Shown here: piece by piece, positions 6,002-12,535 of the stretch
Numbering within the stretch: the stretch's first letter is position 1
How the letters are laid out: each line of letters begins with the position of its first letter
Assembly (NCBI RefSeq): GCF_025699295.1
Contig: NZ_JAILWB010000002.1
Span: 62,001 to 126,000 of the forward strand
Source: Hydrogenophaga sp.
GTDB taxonomy: Bacteria; Pseudomonadota; Gammaproteobacteria; Burkholderiales; Burkholderiaceae_C
Direction of reading: 5' to 3'
DNA: 64,000 nucleotides
Position numbers and translations under genes: made by a program
Notes under the pieces: generated by a model
What the model was told of the DNA's origin: nothing
Databases searched by the model: none
What the model saw: only the letters and a program-made list of their open reading frames with translations

Positions 6002-7575
<1,574 letters not shown>

Positions 7576-7602
7576 TTGTTGCGGCACCCGGCGCAGCCAT
7601 GA

Positions 7603-7633
7603 CAGAGGCCACTTCGGTGGCCTCTGCCGTTTT
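7603..7633 (+). terminator. Rho-independent terminator of ilvBNC
   Basis: A perfect 10-bp stem CAGAGGCCAC/GTGGCCTCTG (7603-7612 with 7617-7626) is closed by the very stable TTCG tetraloop and followed by CCGTTTTT. It sits between ilvC and pssA and should separate their transcripts. Confidence 0.9.
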
Positions 7634-7729
7634 TCACCTCGCGATCCCTGCCTTACACTGGGACACTCTGCGCAGGACAGCTGGCGCAGCGGCCGACGGC
7701 CCGTGATACGACAGAAAAGAAAGGCCTTC

Positions 7730-8545
7730 ATGCACGATGGAACCGACCCCCACATGACGCAGGATCAGGAGCGCCCCAAGCGGCCCAAGGGCATCTACAT
7801 GGTGCCGAACATGATCACGCTTGCGGCTCTGTTCGGTGGTTTCTATTCGGTGGTCATGGCCATGAACGGGCGCTACGATCTGGCAACCCTGGGCATTTTC
7901 GTGGCCATGGTCCTCGACAGCCTGGATGGGCGTGTGGCCCGTCTCACCAACACCCAAAGCGCCTTCGGCGAACAGATGGACTCGCTGTCCGACATGGTTT
8001 CCTTTGGCGCGGCGCCAGCGCTCATCGCCTACGAATGGGCGTTGCGCGACATCGGCCGCTGGGGCTGGATTGCGGCCTTCGTGTACTGTGCCTGCGCGGC
8101 GCTGAGACTGGCGCGCTTCAACGTGAATACCGCTGTGGTGGACAAGCGCTATTTCCAGGGCCTGCCATCGCCGGCTGCTGCCGCGCTGGTCGCCGGCTTC
8201 ATCTGGCTCATGACCGAACTCGGCATTCGCCCGCAGGATGTCACCTGGCCGATGTTCGTCATCACCCTATATACCGGTCTGACCATGGTGACCAATGTAC
8301 CCTTCTACAGCTTCAAGGACCTGAGCCTGAAGAGGAGCGTGCCTTTCGCCGCAATCGTGCTGGTGGCGTTGGGCATCGCCGTGATCAACATTCACCCACC
8401 CACGGTGCTGTTCGCGCTGTTCGTTGTGTATGGGCTCTCAGGCTATGCGGTTTACTGCTGGCGCAAGGCCAAAGGACGCCCCACCAGCGTGATCAGCACA
8501 TCCACCGACGAGCCCGACGAGCGCGGCCTGCACAGCGACGACTGA
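7730..8545 (+). CDS. pssA: CDP-diacylglycerol--serine O-phosphatidyltransferase
   Basis: An integral membrane CDP-alcohol phosphotransferase (271 residues from this start) that makes phosphatidylserine from CDP-diacylglycerol and serine, the precursor of phosphatidylethanolamine. The catalytic signature DGRVARLTNTQSAFGEQMDSLSD (DG..AR, then G...D...D) is complete at about residues 64-86. About six to eight hydrophobic helices follow. The ATG at 7730 is preceded by AAAGG at a 5-base distance; a GTG at 7703 in the same frame is a possible longer start. Its position between ilvC and leuA is common in betaproteobacteria. An intrinsic terminator upstream suggests its own promoter. Confidence 0.93.
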   Translation: MHDGTDPHMTQDQERPKRPKGIYMVPNMITLAALFGGFYSVVMAMNGRYDLATLGIFVAMVLDSLDGRVARLTNTQSAFGEQMDSLSDMVSFGAAPALIAYEWALRDIGRWGWIAAFVYCACAALRLARFNVNTAVVDKRYFQGLPSPAAAALVAGFIWLMTELGIRPQDVTWPMFVITLYTGLTMVTNVPFYSFKDLSLKRSVPFAAIVLVALGIAVINIHPPTVLFALFVVYGLSGYAVYCWRKAKGRPTSVISTSTDEPDERGLHSDD

Positions 8546-8601
8546 TTCGCAGAGACGACTCGCCGGGGCTGGCGCGTCTTCAGGCCTGTCCACCGGCTTT
8601 G

Positions 8602-8610
8602 TGCTACATT
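8602..8610 (+). promoter_or_regulatory. Candidate extended -10 promoter of the leuA leader
   Basis: TGC-TACATT forms an extended -10 just before the leader ORF. Transcription would begin about 7 bases after the hexamer, at 8617-8618. That is the leader peptide's ATG itself, so the leader would be translated with little or no 5' untranslated region. No Shine-Dalgarno sequence is visible before that ATG, which fits. The -35 element is weak. Confidence 0.45.
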
Positions 8611-8617
8611 GCGATCC

Positions 8618-8674
8618 ATGTTCCAGATTTCCCTCTCGCTACTACTGGGTGTCCACCACGGGCAGGTCTGGTAG
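8618..8674 (+). CDS. leuL: Leucine leader peptide of leuA attenuator
   Basis: An 18-codon ORF encodes MFQISLSLLLGVHHGQVW and stops with TAG. Four of five codons at positions 6-10 are leucine (CTC, TCG for Ser, CTA, CTA, CTG). Two consecutive CTA codons stand out because CTA is rare in such a GC-rich genome, so they should stall ribosomes when leucyl-tRNA is short. Downstream are an antiterminator option and a strong terminator before leuA, the layout of classical amino-acid attenuation. The product probably has no function beyond its translation. The name leuL is by analogy with the enterobacterial leader and is not based on protein similarity. Confidence 0.75.
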   Translation: MFQISLSLLLGVHHGQVW

Positions 8675-8704
8675 CGCGCGAGCGATTTCCCAAAAACGGC
8701 CCGT
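8658..8704 (+). promoter_or_regulatory. Candidate antiterminator pairing in leuA leader
   Basis: ACGGGC at 8658-8663, inside the His-Gly-Gln codons of the leader, is a perfect complement of GCCCGT at 8699-8704, which covers the distal half of the terminator's 5' arm. A ribosome stalled on the CTA codons (8639-8644) would leave this segment mostly free to pair and so block the terminator. A ribosome that reaches the stop codon would cover it and let the terminator form. Six base pairs is short, so this is a proposal. Confidence 0.5.
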
Positions 8705-8728
8705 TTGCACCTGCAGCGGGCCGTTTTT
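8692..8728 (+). terminator. Attenuator terminator before leuA
   Basis: The 12-base arms AAAAACGGCCCG (8692-8703) and CGGGCCGTTTTT (8717-8728) are perfectly complementary with a 13-base loop, and the 3' arm itself ends in the U-tract. It lies 17 bases after the leader stop codon and 62 bases before leuA. It therefore ends the leader transcript unless disrupted. Confidence 0.85.
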
Positions 8729-8752
8729 GCTTCTGGAACTGCAGGTTTTTTT
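8709..8752 (+). repeat. Second inverted repeat with T-run, overlapping the attenuator loop
   Basis: ACCTGCAG (8709-8716) lies entirely in the loop of the attenuator terminator. It is perfectly complementary to CTGCAGGT (8739-8746), which is followed by a further T-run to 8752. Together with the first stem this gives an H-type pseudoknot topology: stem 1 of 12 bp, stem 2 of 8 bp, no intervening base, and connecting loops of 5 and 10 bases. Alternatively it is a second tandem terminator. Confidence 0.5.
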
Positions 8753-8790
8753 GAAGCTTTGCCCACGAGGCGATTCATCGGAGCATTGAG

Positions 8791-10332
8791 ATGAGCGACA
8801 AACTGATCATTTTTGACACCACCTTGCGCGACGGCGAGCAATCTCCCGGTGCCTCCATGACGAAGGACGAGAAACTGCGCATTGCGCGCCAGCTCGAACG
8901 TCTGAAGGTGGACGTCATCGAGGCCGGGTTTGCCGCCAGCTCCAACGGCGACTTCGACTGCGTGCAGGCCATCGCCAACACCATCAAGGACTCCACGGTG
9001 TGTTCGCTGGCACGCGCCAACGACCGCGACATCGCGCGCGCGGCCGAGGCGCTCAAAGGGGCTCAGCGCGCCCGCATCCATACCTTCATTGCCACCAGTG
9101 CACTGCACATGGAGAAGAAGCTGCGCATGACGCCCGAGCAGGTGCTGGAGCAGGCAGTGCAGTCGGTGCGCTTCGCGCGCAATCTGGTCGACGACATCGA
9201 GTTCAGTCCGGAAGACGGCTACCGGAGCGATCCGGATTTCCTCTGCCGCGTTCTGGAGGCCGTGATCAAGGAAGGGGCGACGACACTCAACATTCCTGAC
9301 ACGGTGGGCTACGCCATACCCGAGTTGTACGGAGAGTTCATCCGCAACCTGCGCGAGCGCGTGCCCAACGCCGACAAGGCGATCTGGTCGGTGCATTGCC
9401 ACAATGACCTGGGGATGGCCGTGGCGAACTCGCTTGCGGGGGTGAAGATCGGCGGCGCACGCCAGGTCGAATGCACCATCAACGGGCTGGGTGAGCGTGC
9501 GGGCAACTGTTCACTCGAAGAGATCGTGATGGCGGTGCGCACTCGGCGTGACTACTTCGGCCTCGACATCGGCGTGGACGCGACGCAGATCGTGCCGGCC
9601 AGCCGCATGGTCAGTCAGACCACGGGTTTCGTCGTGCAACCCAACAAGGCCGTGGTGGGCGCCAACGCATTTGCTCACGCCAGCGGCATTCACCAGGATG
9701 GTGTGCTCAAGGCGCGCGACACCTACGAAATCATGCGGGCAGAGGATGTGGGCTGGAGTGCCAACAAGATCGTGCTGGGCAAACTCAGTGGGCGCAATGC
9801 CTTCAAGCAACGCCTGCAGGATCTGGGCATCGAGATGGAGTCCGAGAGCGAGATCAACACCGCGTTTGCCGCGTTCAAGGAGCTGGCCGACCGCAAGAGC
9901 GAAATCTTCGACGAGGACATCCTCGCCCTGTGCAGCGACGAGAGCGTGACTGCCGAGAAGGAACAGTACGGCCTCGTGTCGCTCAAGCAGCGCAGCGAAA
10001 CCGGCGAACGGCCGCATGCCAGTGTGGTGTTCACCGTGGAGGGCAAGGAAATCCAGGGCGAAAGCGACGGCAACGGCCCGGTGGACGCGTCGCTAAAGGC
10101 GATCGAGAACCACGTCAAGAGTGGCGCCGAGCTGGTGCTGTACTCGGTCAACGCCATCACGAGTGGATCGACCGAGAGCCAGGGTGAAGTCACGGTGCGG
10201 CTGCAACACGGCGGGCGTGTGGTCAACGGCGTGGGGGCGGACCCGGACATCGTGGTGGCGTCGGCCAAGGCTTATCTGAGTGCGCTGAACAAGCTGCACA
10301 GCAAAGCCGACCGGGTCGCTGCTCAAGGATAA
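8791..10332 (+). CDS. leuA: 2-isopropylmalate synthase
   Basis: A 513-residue enzyme that condenses acetyl-CoA with 2-oxoisovalerate in the first committed step of leucine synthesis. It begins with [16 protein letters not shown], the catalytic/metal region of the DRE-TIM metallolyase family. It contains [17 protein letters not shown] with the metal-binding His residues around residue 207, and [13 protein letters not shown]. The C-terminal 120 residues form the regulatory LeuA dimer domain ([26 protein letters not shown]) that binds leucine for feedback inhibition. It therefore appears to be controlled both by attenuation (upstream leader) and allosterically. The other leu genes are not in the window. 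Confidence 0.97.
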
Positions 10333-10444
10333 TACTCAATTAAATCAAAGGCTTGCGGTATTTTGTTTCTTGATCCGCAGAATTGACACCAAAAGTAGCG
10401 CCTGTTCTACCGATCACTGAAGATAATTACCCAAGCTTTTGATA

Positions 10445-10473
10445 TTGCTAGTTTTTTTCCGCGTGCTTATACT
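10445..10473 (+). promoter_or_regulatory. Sigma-70-type promoter of the PBP7-like gene
   Basis: TTGCTA (10445-10450), a 17-base spacer and TATACT (10468-10473) form a near-consensus promoter. It lies within an AT-rich gap after leuA, 36 bases before the start codon. Confidence 0.7.
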
Positions 10474-10509
10474 CCACTCCTGCGCAATTCCTGTTGCTGG
10501 AGTGAAGTC

Positions 10510-11655
10510 ATGGTCATCGGCGTCAATCACCTTCGCAAATTCCTGCTGACGGCAGCCATTGCTTGCTGGGTGACGTTGTCCCTGACGCCAGCTCCTGTCG
10601 AAGCTGCAACCACTGGAAAAACCACAAAGAAGGCGGTGGCCTCCAAGACCTCGGTCAAGCGCAGCGTTGCGTCGACGCGCAAGTCCCCATCCAAAGTGGC
10701 CAAGACCCCGACGCGCAAGACGGCCAGCGCTTCCCGCAGGACCGCCAACCGGGTCAAGGTGCAGATGGCGGCGGGCAAATCCGGCTCGCTGCACAAGGTG
10801 GCTGTGCGCAAGAACCCCGTGGCGCATGCCGCCGTACAGCCGCGCCGCTCGAACGGAGAGCGCCTGGGTCTGCGCTCGATGGACGATCCGCTTGATCTCA
10901 ACTCGAGCGTGGCGCTGGTGATCGATCAGGAAACGAATGAAGTGCTGTTCAGCAAGAACGATGCGGCCGTGCTGCCGATCGCGTCGCTGACCAAGCTCAT
11001 GACGGGTTTGGTGATTGCCGAGGCCAATCTCGACATGGAAGAGATGATCACCATCACCCGGGATGACGTGGACACCTACAAGGGCAGCCGTTCGCGGTTG
11101 GCCGTTGGCAGCACGCTCAGTCGCGGTGAACTGTTGCACCTGGCGCTGATGTCCAGCGAAAACCGGGCGGCGCACGCGCTCGGGCGTACCCACCCAGGTG
11201 GGCTGGACGAGTTTGTTCGCCTGATGAATCGCAAAGCCGACGAGCTTGGCATGGCCGATACCCGCTACGTGGAGCCGACTGGTCTTTCGAGCCAGAATCA
11301 GTCGAGCGCACGCGACCTTGCCACACTGGTCTCGGTCGCTTACGAGCGCCCGATCCTGCGCAGCCTGTCCACCTCGCCGGGATATGAAGTGGAGCTGGGC
11401 CGCCGAACCCTCCACTACAACAACTCCAACCGCCTCGTCAAGAACCCGTCATGGGATATCGGTCTGCAGAAAACGGGCTACATCTCGGAGGCTGGGCGCT
11501 GTCTCGTCATGCAGGCCAAGGTGGCGGGCCGCCAGTTGATCATGGTCTTCCTCGACTCGGCGGGCACGCTCAGTCGCCTTCGGGATGCCGAACGGGTGCG
11601 GCGCTGGGTGGAGGTGCAGACCGACACGCATCCTGCGGTCAGGCCGCAGGGCTGA
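10510..11655 (+). CDS. pbpG: D-alanyl-D-alanine endopeptidase (PBP7 type, peptidase S11)
   Basis: A 381-residue exported serine peptidase of the PBP7 family, which cleaves peptide crosslinks in peptidoglycan in the periplasm. A signal peptide (residues 1 to about 32, FLLTAAIACWVTLSL, cleavage near VEA) is followed by about 85 residues rich in Lys, Arg, Ser, Thr and Ala with no recognisable fold, probably a linker or wall-binding tail. The penicillin-binding motifs are complete: SLTK at 159-162, SEN at 216-218, KTG at 321-323. The ATG has GGAGTGAA upstream. It is monocistronic, between its own promoter and a strong terminator. The gene symbol is inferred from the motifs and length; a PBP5/6 carboxypeptidase would have a C-terminal beta domain and amphipathic helix, which are absent here. 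Confidence 0.87.
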   Translation: MVIGVNHLRKFLLTAAIACWVTLSLTPAPVEAATTGKTTKKAVASKTSVKRSVASTRKSPSKVAKTPTRKTASASRRTANRVKVQMAAGKSGSLHKVAVRKNPVAHAAVQPRRSNGERLGLRSMDDPLDLNSSVALVIDQETNEVLFSKNDAAVLPIASLTKLMTGLVIAEANLDMEEMITITRDDVDTYKGSRSRLAVGSTLSRGELLHLALMSSENRAAHALGRTHPGGLDEFVRLMNRKADELGMADTRYVEPTGLSSQNQSSARDLATLVSVAYERPILRSLSTSPGYEVELGRRTLHYNNSNRLVKNPSWDIGLQKTGYISEAGRCLVMQAKVAGRQLIMVFLDSAGTLSRLRDAERVRRWVEVQTDTHPAVRPQG

Positions 11656-11673
11656 CAAGGCTGCTGTACACAA

Positions 11674-11718
11674 GTACACAAGAGAAAAGGCCCCACCGGG
11701 GCCTTTTCTCTTGTGTAC
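11674..11718 (+). terminator. Bidirectional terminator with 21-bp perfect stem
   Basis: Two perfectly complementary 21-base arms (11674-11694 and 11698-11718; core AAAAGGCCCC/GGGGCCTTTT) enclose a 3-base ACC. The AAAAG/CTTTT symmetry supplies U-rich ends for both strands. It sits between the convergent pbpG and iclR-type genes. The outer TGTACACAA is partly duplicated just upstream at 11665-11673. Confidence 0.85.
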
Positions 11719-11734
11719 AGCGCGGTCGGTTTGT

Positions 11735-12535
11735 TCAGCGTGCCGCGGACGGGTTGGGGACCTTCGGACACCCCAGGGCCATGGAGATCTCCGCCGCTGT
11801 CGAGCGCAGCTTGGGTACCCAGCTCTCGTCAATGCGATCGGCCGGCGCGGAGATGGACAAACCCGCCACCAGTTTGCTCTGGTCGTCGTAGATGCCGGCG
11901 GCCATGCAGCGCACGCCCATTTCCAGTTCTTCGTTGTCGCGTGCCAGACCGGCCTGGCGGCATTGCAACAGTTCACGCTCCAGCGTGCTCAACTGGGTCA
12001 GGCTGTTGCGGGTGTTGCCCGCAAGTCCGGTGCGTGTGGCATAGGCGCGCACCCTTTGAGGTTCGTCATCCGCCAGAAAGAGTTTGCCCACCGAGGTCAG
12101 GTGCAAAGGGGCGCGTCCACCGATGGCGCGCACCACCTGCATGCCCGAGCGCTCGCTGTAGGCGCGCTCCACGTACACGATTTCATCGCCCTGGCGCACG
12201 CTCAGATTGACGGGCTGCTGGATCAGCTTGTGCAGCTCACGCATGGGGAGCAAGGCCGCATCCCTGACGCTCAGGCGGGCCTTGACCAGATTGCCCAGTT
12301 CCAGCAGCCGCATGCCCAGGCGGTAGCTGCCAGCTTCCGGGCGATCAACAAAGCGGCCAATGGTCAGGTCGTTGAGGATGCGGTGCGCGGTGGACGGATG
12401 AAGGCCCGTCTTTTCGCTGATGTCCTTCAGCGACACTGGCTCTTCACGCGATGCGAGCACCTCCAGCAGATTGAACATGCGCTCGATGACCTGAACGGTC
12501 GGCGTGCTGGGGAGAGACTCGGAACGTTTGGTCAT
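11735..12535 (-). CDS. IclR family transcriptional regulator
   Basis: A 266-residue IclR-type regulator. The N-terminal winged helix-turn-helix is seen in VIERMFNLLEVLASREEPVSLKDISEKTGLHPSTAHRILNDL (residues about 15-55). The C-terminal effector-binding domain runs from about residue 75, with the typical GGRAPLHLTSVGKLFLA and MGVRCMAAGIYDD segments. The ATG at 12535 (MTKRSESL) is preferred over a TTG three codons upstream. The effector and targets cannot be read from the sequence. No catabolic operon lies next to it; the nearest genes are the convergent pbpG and the bpt-aat pair, so it probably acts elsewhere. Confidence 0.92.
   Translation of the reverse strand: MTKRSESLPSTPTVQVIERMFNLLEVLASREEPVSLKDISEKTGLHPSTAHRILNDLTIGRFVDRPEAGSYRLGMRLLELGNLVKARLSVRDAALLPMRELHKLIQQPVNLSVRQGDEIVYVERAYSERSGMQVVRAIGGRAPLHLTSVGKLFLADDEPQRVRAYATRTGLAGNTRNSLTQLSTLERELLQCRQAGLARDNEELEMGVRCMAAGIYDDQSKLVAGLSISAPADRIDESWVPKLRSTAAEISMALGCPKVPNPSAAR

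Follow-up and report, generated by a model that had tools for sequence, protein, structure and literature searches.

A probable leucine attenuator with a predicted leaderless start upstream of leuA in a betaproteobacterial family

Known amino-acid leaders and the leuA locus

The leucine leader of E. coli, leuL, is preceded by a 5' untranslated stretch, and leuBCD lie downstream. The leader described here, found in the window (the whole stretch of 64,000 nucleotides that was analysed), resembles leuL in carrying a run of CTA codons (four in leuL) and in having a T-run hairpin between leader and leuA. It differs in size and in how it is likely to begin: leuL has 28 codons and GGAG before its ATG, whereas the leader in the window has 18 codons and no SD-like motif, its transcription start is predicted at the ATG itself, and one half of its antiterminator lies inside the ORF.

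As PMC1183508 reports, Carter et al. found the Salmonella leu leader to be less sensitive once CUA was replaced by CUG. The S. meliloti trpL attenuator RNA (rnTrpL) begins at the ATG of a 14-amino-acid leader ORF and ends at the terminator (PMC7298713); unlike the present leader, it concerns tryptophan and trpE(G) in an alphaproteobacterium, and its 5' end is reported whereas ours is predicted. In C. glutamicum, transcription of ilvBNC starts one nucleotide from the leader start codon and a three-hairpin model has been described (PMC11857589), but the leader there is MTIIRLVVVTARRLP, it serves ilvBNC, and the organism is an actinobacterium. A survey of 43 Rfam families proposed that amino-acid leaders may originate in gammaproteobacteria, with very few transfers (PMC3766115), and the main text of a broad terminator survey (PMC2965389) makes no mention of leuA. 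Among the papers listed in literature searches, none announces in its title or abstract opening an attenuator of betaproteobacterial leuA, or of DAHP synthase of the kind described below; proteobacterial attenuators were also surveyed in 2004 by Vitreschak and others (cited in PMC6123439).

We consider the region before leuA to be very probably a leucine-specific, ribosome-mediated transcription attenuator, with a leader mRNA that most likely begins at the AUG. The earlier note on this DNA had proposed classical attenuation, and that reading is supported here by conserved parts, by a bias towards CTA and GGG codons, and by covariation in the terminator. The mechanism is an ordinary one, known in principle, in an unusual and widespread form. 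On the same strand, leuA follows ilvB, ilvN, ilvC and pssA and is itself followed by a D-Ala-D-Ala endopeptidase-like gene (gene names from NCBIfam). The closest named relatives of this leuA, among the matches listed, come from Hydrogenophaga (at most 97% identity) and from other Comamonadaceae and Burkholderiales. The gap between pssA and leuA holds the 18-codon ORF, the 12-bp terminator and the ACGGGC/GCCCGT complement (Table 1); these parts, their conservation, the codon bias and the promoter spacing emerge from sequence comparison.

Table 1. Features of the leuA leader region, with positions in the window, and one further leader from the same genome
Feature	Position	Strand	Basis
Extended -10 promoter element TGTGCTACATT	8600..8610	+	at least 8 of 11 positions match in 58/58 leaders
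Predicted transcription start, at the first base of the leader ATG or the base preceding it	8617..8618	+	usual -10 to +1 distance
Leader ORF MFQISLSLLLGVHHGQVW, 18 codons, ATG 8618-8620, stop TAG 8672-8674	8618..8674	+	sequence, relatives
Leader Leu codons 6 (CTC), 8 (CTA), 9 (CTA), 10 (CTG)	8633, 8639, 8642, 8645	+	
Leader (1:2) hairpin, 8638-8644 with 8669-8675, inner 8650-8654 with 8660-8664	8638..8675	+	fold, alignment
Antiterminator 5' half ACGGGC, within codons 14-16	8658..8663	+	sequence, alignment, fold
Antiterminator 3' half GCCCGT, overlapping the terminator 5' arm	8699..8704	+	sequence, alignment, fold
Intrinsic terminator, 12-bp stem and T run; arms AAAAACGGCCCG (8692-8703) and CGGGCCGTTTTT (8717-8728)	8692..8728	+	folding, family alignment
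GGAG, likely ribosome-binding site of leuA	8780..8783	+	sequence
leuA, 2-isopropylmalate synthase, 513 aa	8791..10332	+	TIGR00973 at 700 bits, above cut-off
DAHP synthase leader (locus L243), outside the window	G000:C38:54814-54835	minus	

Codon choice and RNA pairing in the leader

A search for leuA relatives gave 586 candidate loci, the best 80 of which were kept, and a Leu-rich leader with a terminator was found upstream of leuA in 57 of these best 80 of 586. Together with the window they make 58 leaders of 16 to 26 codons, 57 with an ATG start and one with GTG. Among them L011 stands out by its 22 codons and its lack of an H-G-R motif. Outside the 57, L080 has both leader and terminator farther upstream of leuA, and L012 (142 bases upstream), with a terminator and a GTG ORF, was left uncounted.

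Because the 58 leaders were picked as short Leu-containing ORFs, the openness of these frames is no evidence. The evidence that the leader is probably translated lies in its codon choice. CTA accounts for 130 of 261 Leu codons in the leaders but for 8 of 1,891 in the leuA genes next to them, and at least one CTA occurs in every one of the 58 leaders. The ORF described earlier, with leucine at codons 6, 8, 9 and 10 including a CTA CTA pair, is present in the window, and CTA is as rare there as had been claimed (14 of the 1,858 Leu codons counted over 41 ORFs). The suggestion that pairing with the UAG stop is the sole reason for keeping CTA was weakened: leaders with a TAA stop keep CTA despite losing a pair.

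The Gly codon within the antiterminator is also biased: among the 52 leaders in which a script found the motif, 50 use GGG, vs 8.6% GGG in the leuA genes. This bears out the earlier note's suspicion that RNA pairing constrains the peptide. In L029 and L078 the GGG spans two codons (CTG CGG GTG). Since the Gly codon is biased to GGG and is split across codons in these two leaders, the sequence there is conserved more as RNA than as peptide.

The claimed 12-bp terminator was confirmed in the sequence. Positions 8690-8728 fold with z = -5.3 (0 of 200 shuffles as good), and the 111-nt leader, 8618-8728, with z = -4.2 (1 of 200). Across 55 distinct rows of the family alignment, 97.6% of terminator cells are paired, and two pairs show two-sided changes, in 22 and 10 sequences. 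The 6-bp antiterminator option could likewise be recovered, its two halves being complementary and the first beginning inside the ORF. Folding energy is not above chance for either the antiterminator stretch (8655-8708, z = -0.3) or the leader hairpin (z = -0.9), so both rest on comparison with relatives. In the hairpin's outer helix 79.2% of cells are paired and four of seven pairs have two-sided changes; the inner helix is 68.7% paired.

Antiterminator columns are paired in 94.5% of cells, mainly because the core GGGC/GCCC hardly varies. The sole two-sided change counted, at one pair in five sequences (L029, L042, L062, L065, L078), is unsound because neighbouring pairs break in that alignment register. 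Sliding the 3' partner by +2 columns gave a covariation of 0.065 vs 0.054 and eight two-sided cells vs five; two columns off, L029 and L078 read by eye as GCGGGT facing GCCCGC (six pairs, one of them G-U), and the region in L042 and L062 reads GCGCGC. With almost no sound two-sided change, covariation was set aside as the chief proof of the antiterminator. The earlier note had predicted conservation together with compensatory changes in this pairing. The leader, its Leu codons and the terminator are indeed kept, but compensation in the antiterminator is scarce and is present in the terminator instead.

Promoter element, predicted start and competing readings

An element resembling TGTGnTAnAnT precedes the leader start codon in all 58 leaders, at a distance of 6 nt in 32, 7 nt in 24 and 8 nt in 2; these leaders had been selected for leader and terminator, independently of the -10. 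For this count the start of L045 was assigned to an ATG 12 bases upstream of its inner ATG; an earlier, wider -10 search gave 6-8 nt in 56 of 58, with L031 (a tie) and L045 as exceptions. No position passed the information cut-off for a -35 in the 39 bases before the element's first flanking base across the 58 leaders. At -18 to -4, 52 of 58 leuA matches have an SD-like 4-mer, as against 0 of 58 leaders (with the inner ATG used for L045). Because the -10 box sits 6-8 nt before the start in all 58 leaders and an SD-like motif occurs in none, the leader mRNA is probably leaderless, a feature absent from the earlier note, with its start placed at the ATG by the usual distance from -10 to +1.

The main competitor keeps the leucine attenuator and has the leader translated from a longer mRNA, through readthrough from ilvBNC-pssA or from an upstream promoter, so that TGTGnTAnAnT would not be the relevant promoter. 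The gene order is in keeping with this, as leuA lies downstream of ilvB, ilvN, ilvC and pssA on the same strand, and a simple promoter scan found no match to the sigma-70 consensus in 8400-8900. However, a leader within a longer mRNA sits poorly with 58 of 58 leaders missing an SD-like motif. The element and its spacing are also kept in three loci where no pssA was found alongside (L120-L122; selected by a model whose columns take in the -10), and the same element stands before a DAHP synthase leader. We regard this reading as unlikely, and we favour a leaderless leader mRNA initiated at the extended -10 element.

The start site, the stalling and the response to leucine are what we infer for the attenuator. 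RNA polymerase would start at the extended -10 promoter and a ribosome would load on the 5' AUG. With ample leucyl-tRNA, the ribosome would reach the UAG and cover the last codons, and the terminator would end the transcript at ~111 nt. When leucine is short, the ribosome would stall at codons 8-10 with the leader hairpin opened, leaving ACGGGC free to capture GCCCGT, so that leuA would be transcribed. Without a ribosome, the leader hairpin (8638-8675) would hide the antiterminator half.

These ribosome positions were modelled by folding 56 leaders (without L011 and L073), with the ribosome assumed to mask the RNA as far as 12 nt beyond the first base of the A-site codon. With the ribosome on the last Leu cluster, the terminator 5' arm was captured by upstream RNA with a mean probability of 0.96, the value being that of the best among several Leu codons; a control with a single masked position and the intervening stretch shuffled gave 0.59. 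Mean capture was 0.16 with the ribosome at the stop and 0.54 without a ribosome; given the latter value, the leader hairpin is not clearly protective in every species. In the window itself, capture was 0.89-1.0 at the Leu codons, 0.31 at the stop and 0.44 with no ribosome. L005 was low at Leu in the model because the script took a later single Leu as the cluster; at its LLL the profile reaches 1.0. In L004 capture stays above 0.5 at the stop codon.

Two further readings are highly improbable. That the hairpin is a mere terminator of ilvBNC-pssA with an incidental short ORF would suit a stem and T run placed directly after pssA, where they would end upstream transcription, but it is opposed by the CTA and GGG enrichment in the ORF, the promoter-like element between pssA and the leader, the kept antiterminator pairing, and the presence of the element without a nearby pssA match in L120-L122 and L228. 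That a protein or riboswitch senses leucine at the leader, with the ORF secondary, has the general precedent of other attenuator kinds before amino-acid genes; against it, the control codons and their spacing fit ribosome stalling in the folding model, and neither 7000-12000 of the window nor 11 loci from relatives gave an Rfam match reaching the gathering score. The Rfam leucine operon leader, RF00512, was not among six matches up to E = 1 in 7000-12000, and the one match overlapping the leader was Thr_leader, at 25.8 bits vs a gathering score of 55.

Distribution in the family and leaders beyond it

Besides the leaderless-looking start, the earlier attenuator reading needs amending as to which leuA the element precedes. 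A second leuA, ~26% identical, stands directly in front in 18 of the best 80 of 586 loci, and in 17 of these 18 tandem-leuA genomes (L216-L227, L229-L233) the element comes after pssA and before this distant leuA, which is a TIGR00970-like 2-isopropylmalate synthase (NCBIfam; two tested, L213 and L228). The genome of L044 has the element before a distant leuA located elsewhere. An element precedes a 2-isopropylmalate synthase gene in 76 of the genomes behind the best 80 of 586 loci. The elements before the distant leuA were located with R1, a covariance model made from 56 leaders (all but L011 and L073), which had no match at E <= 0.05 in the genomes of L012, L020, L076 and L079.

Across the family, R1 matched 217 of 250 genomes (the window's own included) and 126 of 141 genera at E <= 0.01, with no match in the other 33 genomes at that threshold. 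In the order it matched 11 of 300 genomes at E <= 0.001, eight from the same family and three from another (f10). Neighbours were checked for 39 better-scoring matches (30 from the family draw, eight from the order draw and one other), and all 39 lie before one or other kind of leuA. A weak match in the window's own genome (L115, E = 0.2) showed no Leu-rich leader. Seven secondary R1 matches comprise one before a distant leuA (L235), one in coding-like sequence (L236) and five DAHP synthase leaders (L237-L241).

The strict pattern TGTGNTANANTN{5,8}ATG occurs twice in the 4.69 Mb genome (reversed control, once), and both sites precede attenuator-like leaders, that of leuA and that of DAHP synthase. 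Ten genomes of the genus contain it 17 times (reversed control, 5): at eight leucine leaders, three of which (L247, L248, L250) precede a distant leuA, at eight aromatic leaders preceding DAHP synthase, and at one other site. Six genomes of other families have two occurrences (control, 2), and no such leader follows either of them.

The DAHP synthase gene (TIGR00034, NCBIfam) is preceded by MSSRFAFFAFYFWFSVPGGREARL, a Phe/Tyr/Trp-rich leader with the same -10-to-ATG layout and a GC-rich terminator. From its sequence, this leader looks like an aromatic amino-acid attenuator. Similar Phe/Tyr/Trp-rich leaders were observed in seven more genomes of the genus (L255-L261) and in the five other genomes of L237-L241.

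For other families, we inspected 48 leuA places (28 loci and 20 regions), with L135 and L150 having only 34 and 88 bases upstream. At 24 of the 48, all within L132-L171, a different Leu- or Arg-rich leader was recognised by eye, many of these ending in LLLRPAR or LLLRVRAH before the stop; at L131 a Leu-rich leader is accompanied by a terminator. Among the 24 recognised by eye, 23 show TAnAnT 6-10 nt ahead of the ATG, as against 0.8% of other upstream positions, and an SD-like motif was found in 0 of 24. The first 18 bases past the stop contain 3-7% G and 35-61% C, counted in blocks of six, and for most of these leaders a simple search for a hairpin followed by a T run gave no terminator. A Rho-based working of these leaders is a guess on our part.

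With a sequence-only model of these leader ends, R2, matches at E <= 0.001 came from 137 of the 300 genomes drawn from the order, spread over 36 families, weak matches included in the count. Ten R2 regions, mostly away from known leuA, comprised seven before a distant leuA, two before an ordinary leuA (in one of which, L212, the script found no leader ORF) and one inside an anthranilate synthase gene in genome G370, which was taken as a chance match. Outside the family, two genomes, G521 (L209, L215) and G274 (L169, L208), have an LLLR-type leader in front of each of the two kinds of leuA, at two different sites.

Tentatively, and short of calling it probable, we suggest that betaproteobacteria share leaderless attenuators, with a -10 box fused to the start codon, which would guard the first step of leucine synthesis, whichever kind of leuA encodes it, and within the window's family the first aromatic amino-acid step as well. 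The older leucine form would be the one spread over many families, ending in LLLRxxR, C-rich and G-poor after the stop, without a recognisable terminator and perhaps working through Rho. The window's family would then have evolved the intrinsic-terminator switch, with its antiterminator in the last codons. The leucine attenuator read here would extend leucine attenuation to leuA in a large family of betaproteobacteria. It would also provide natural leaderless small ORFs that have to be translated if the switch is to operate, making leaderless initiation testable in this group. Theory on how attenuators choose their codons may find in the CTA bias a second natural case, next to that of the enterobacteria.
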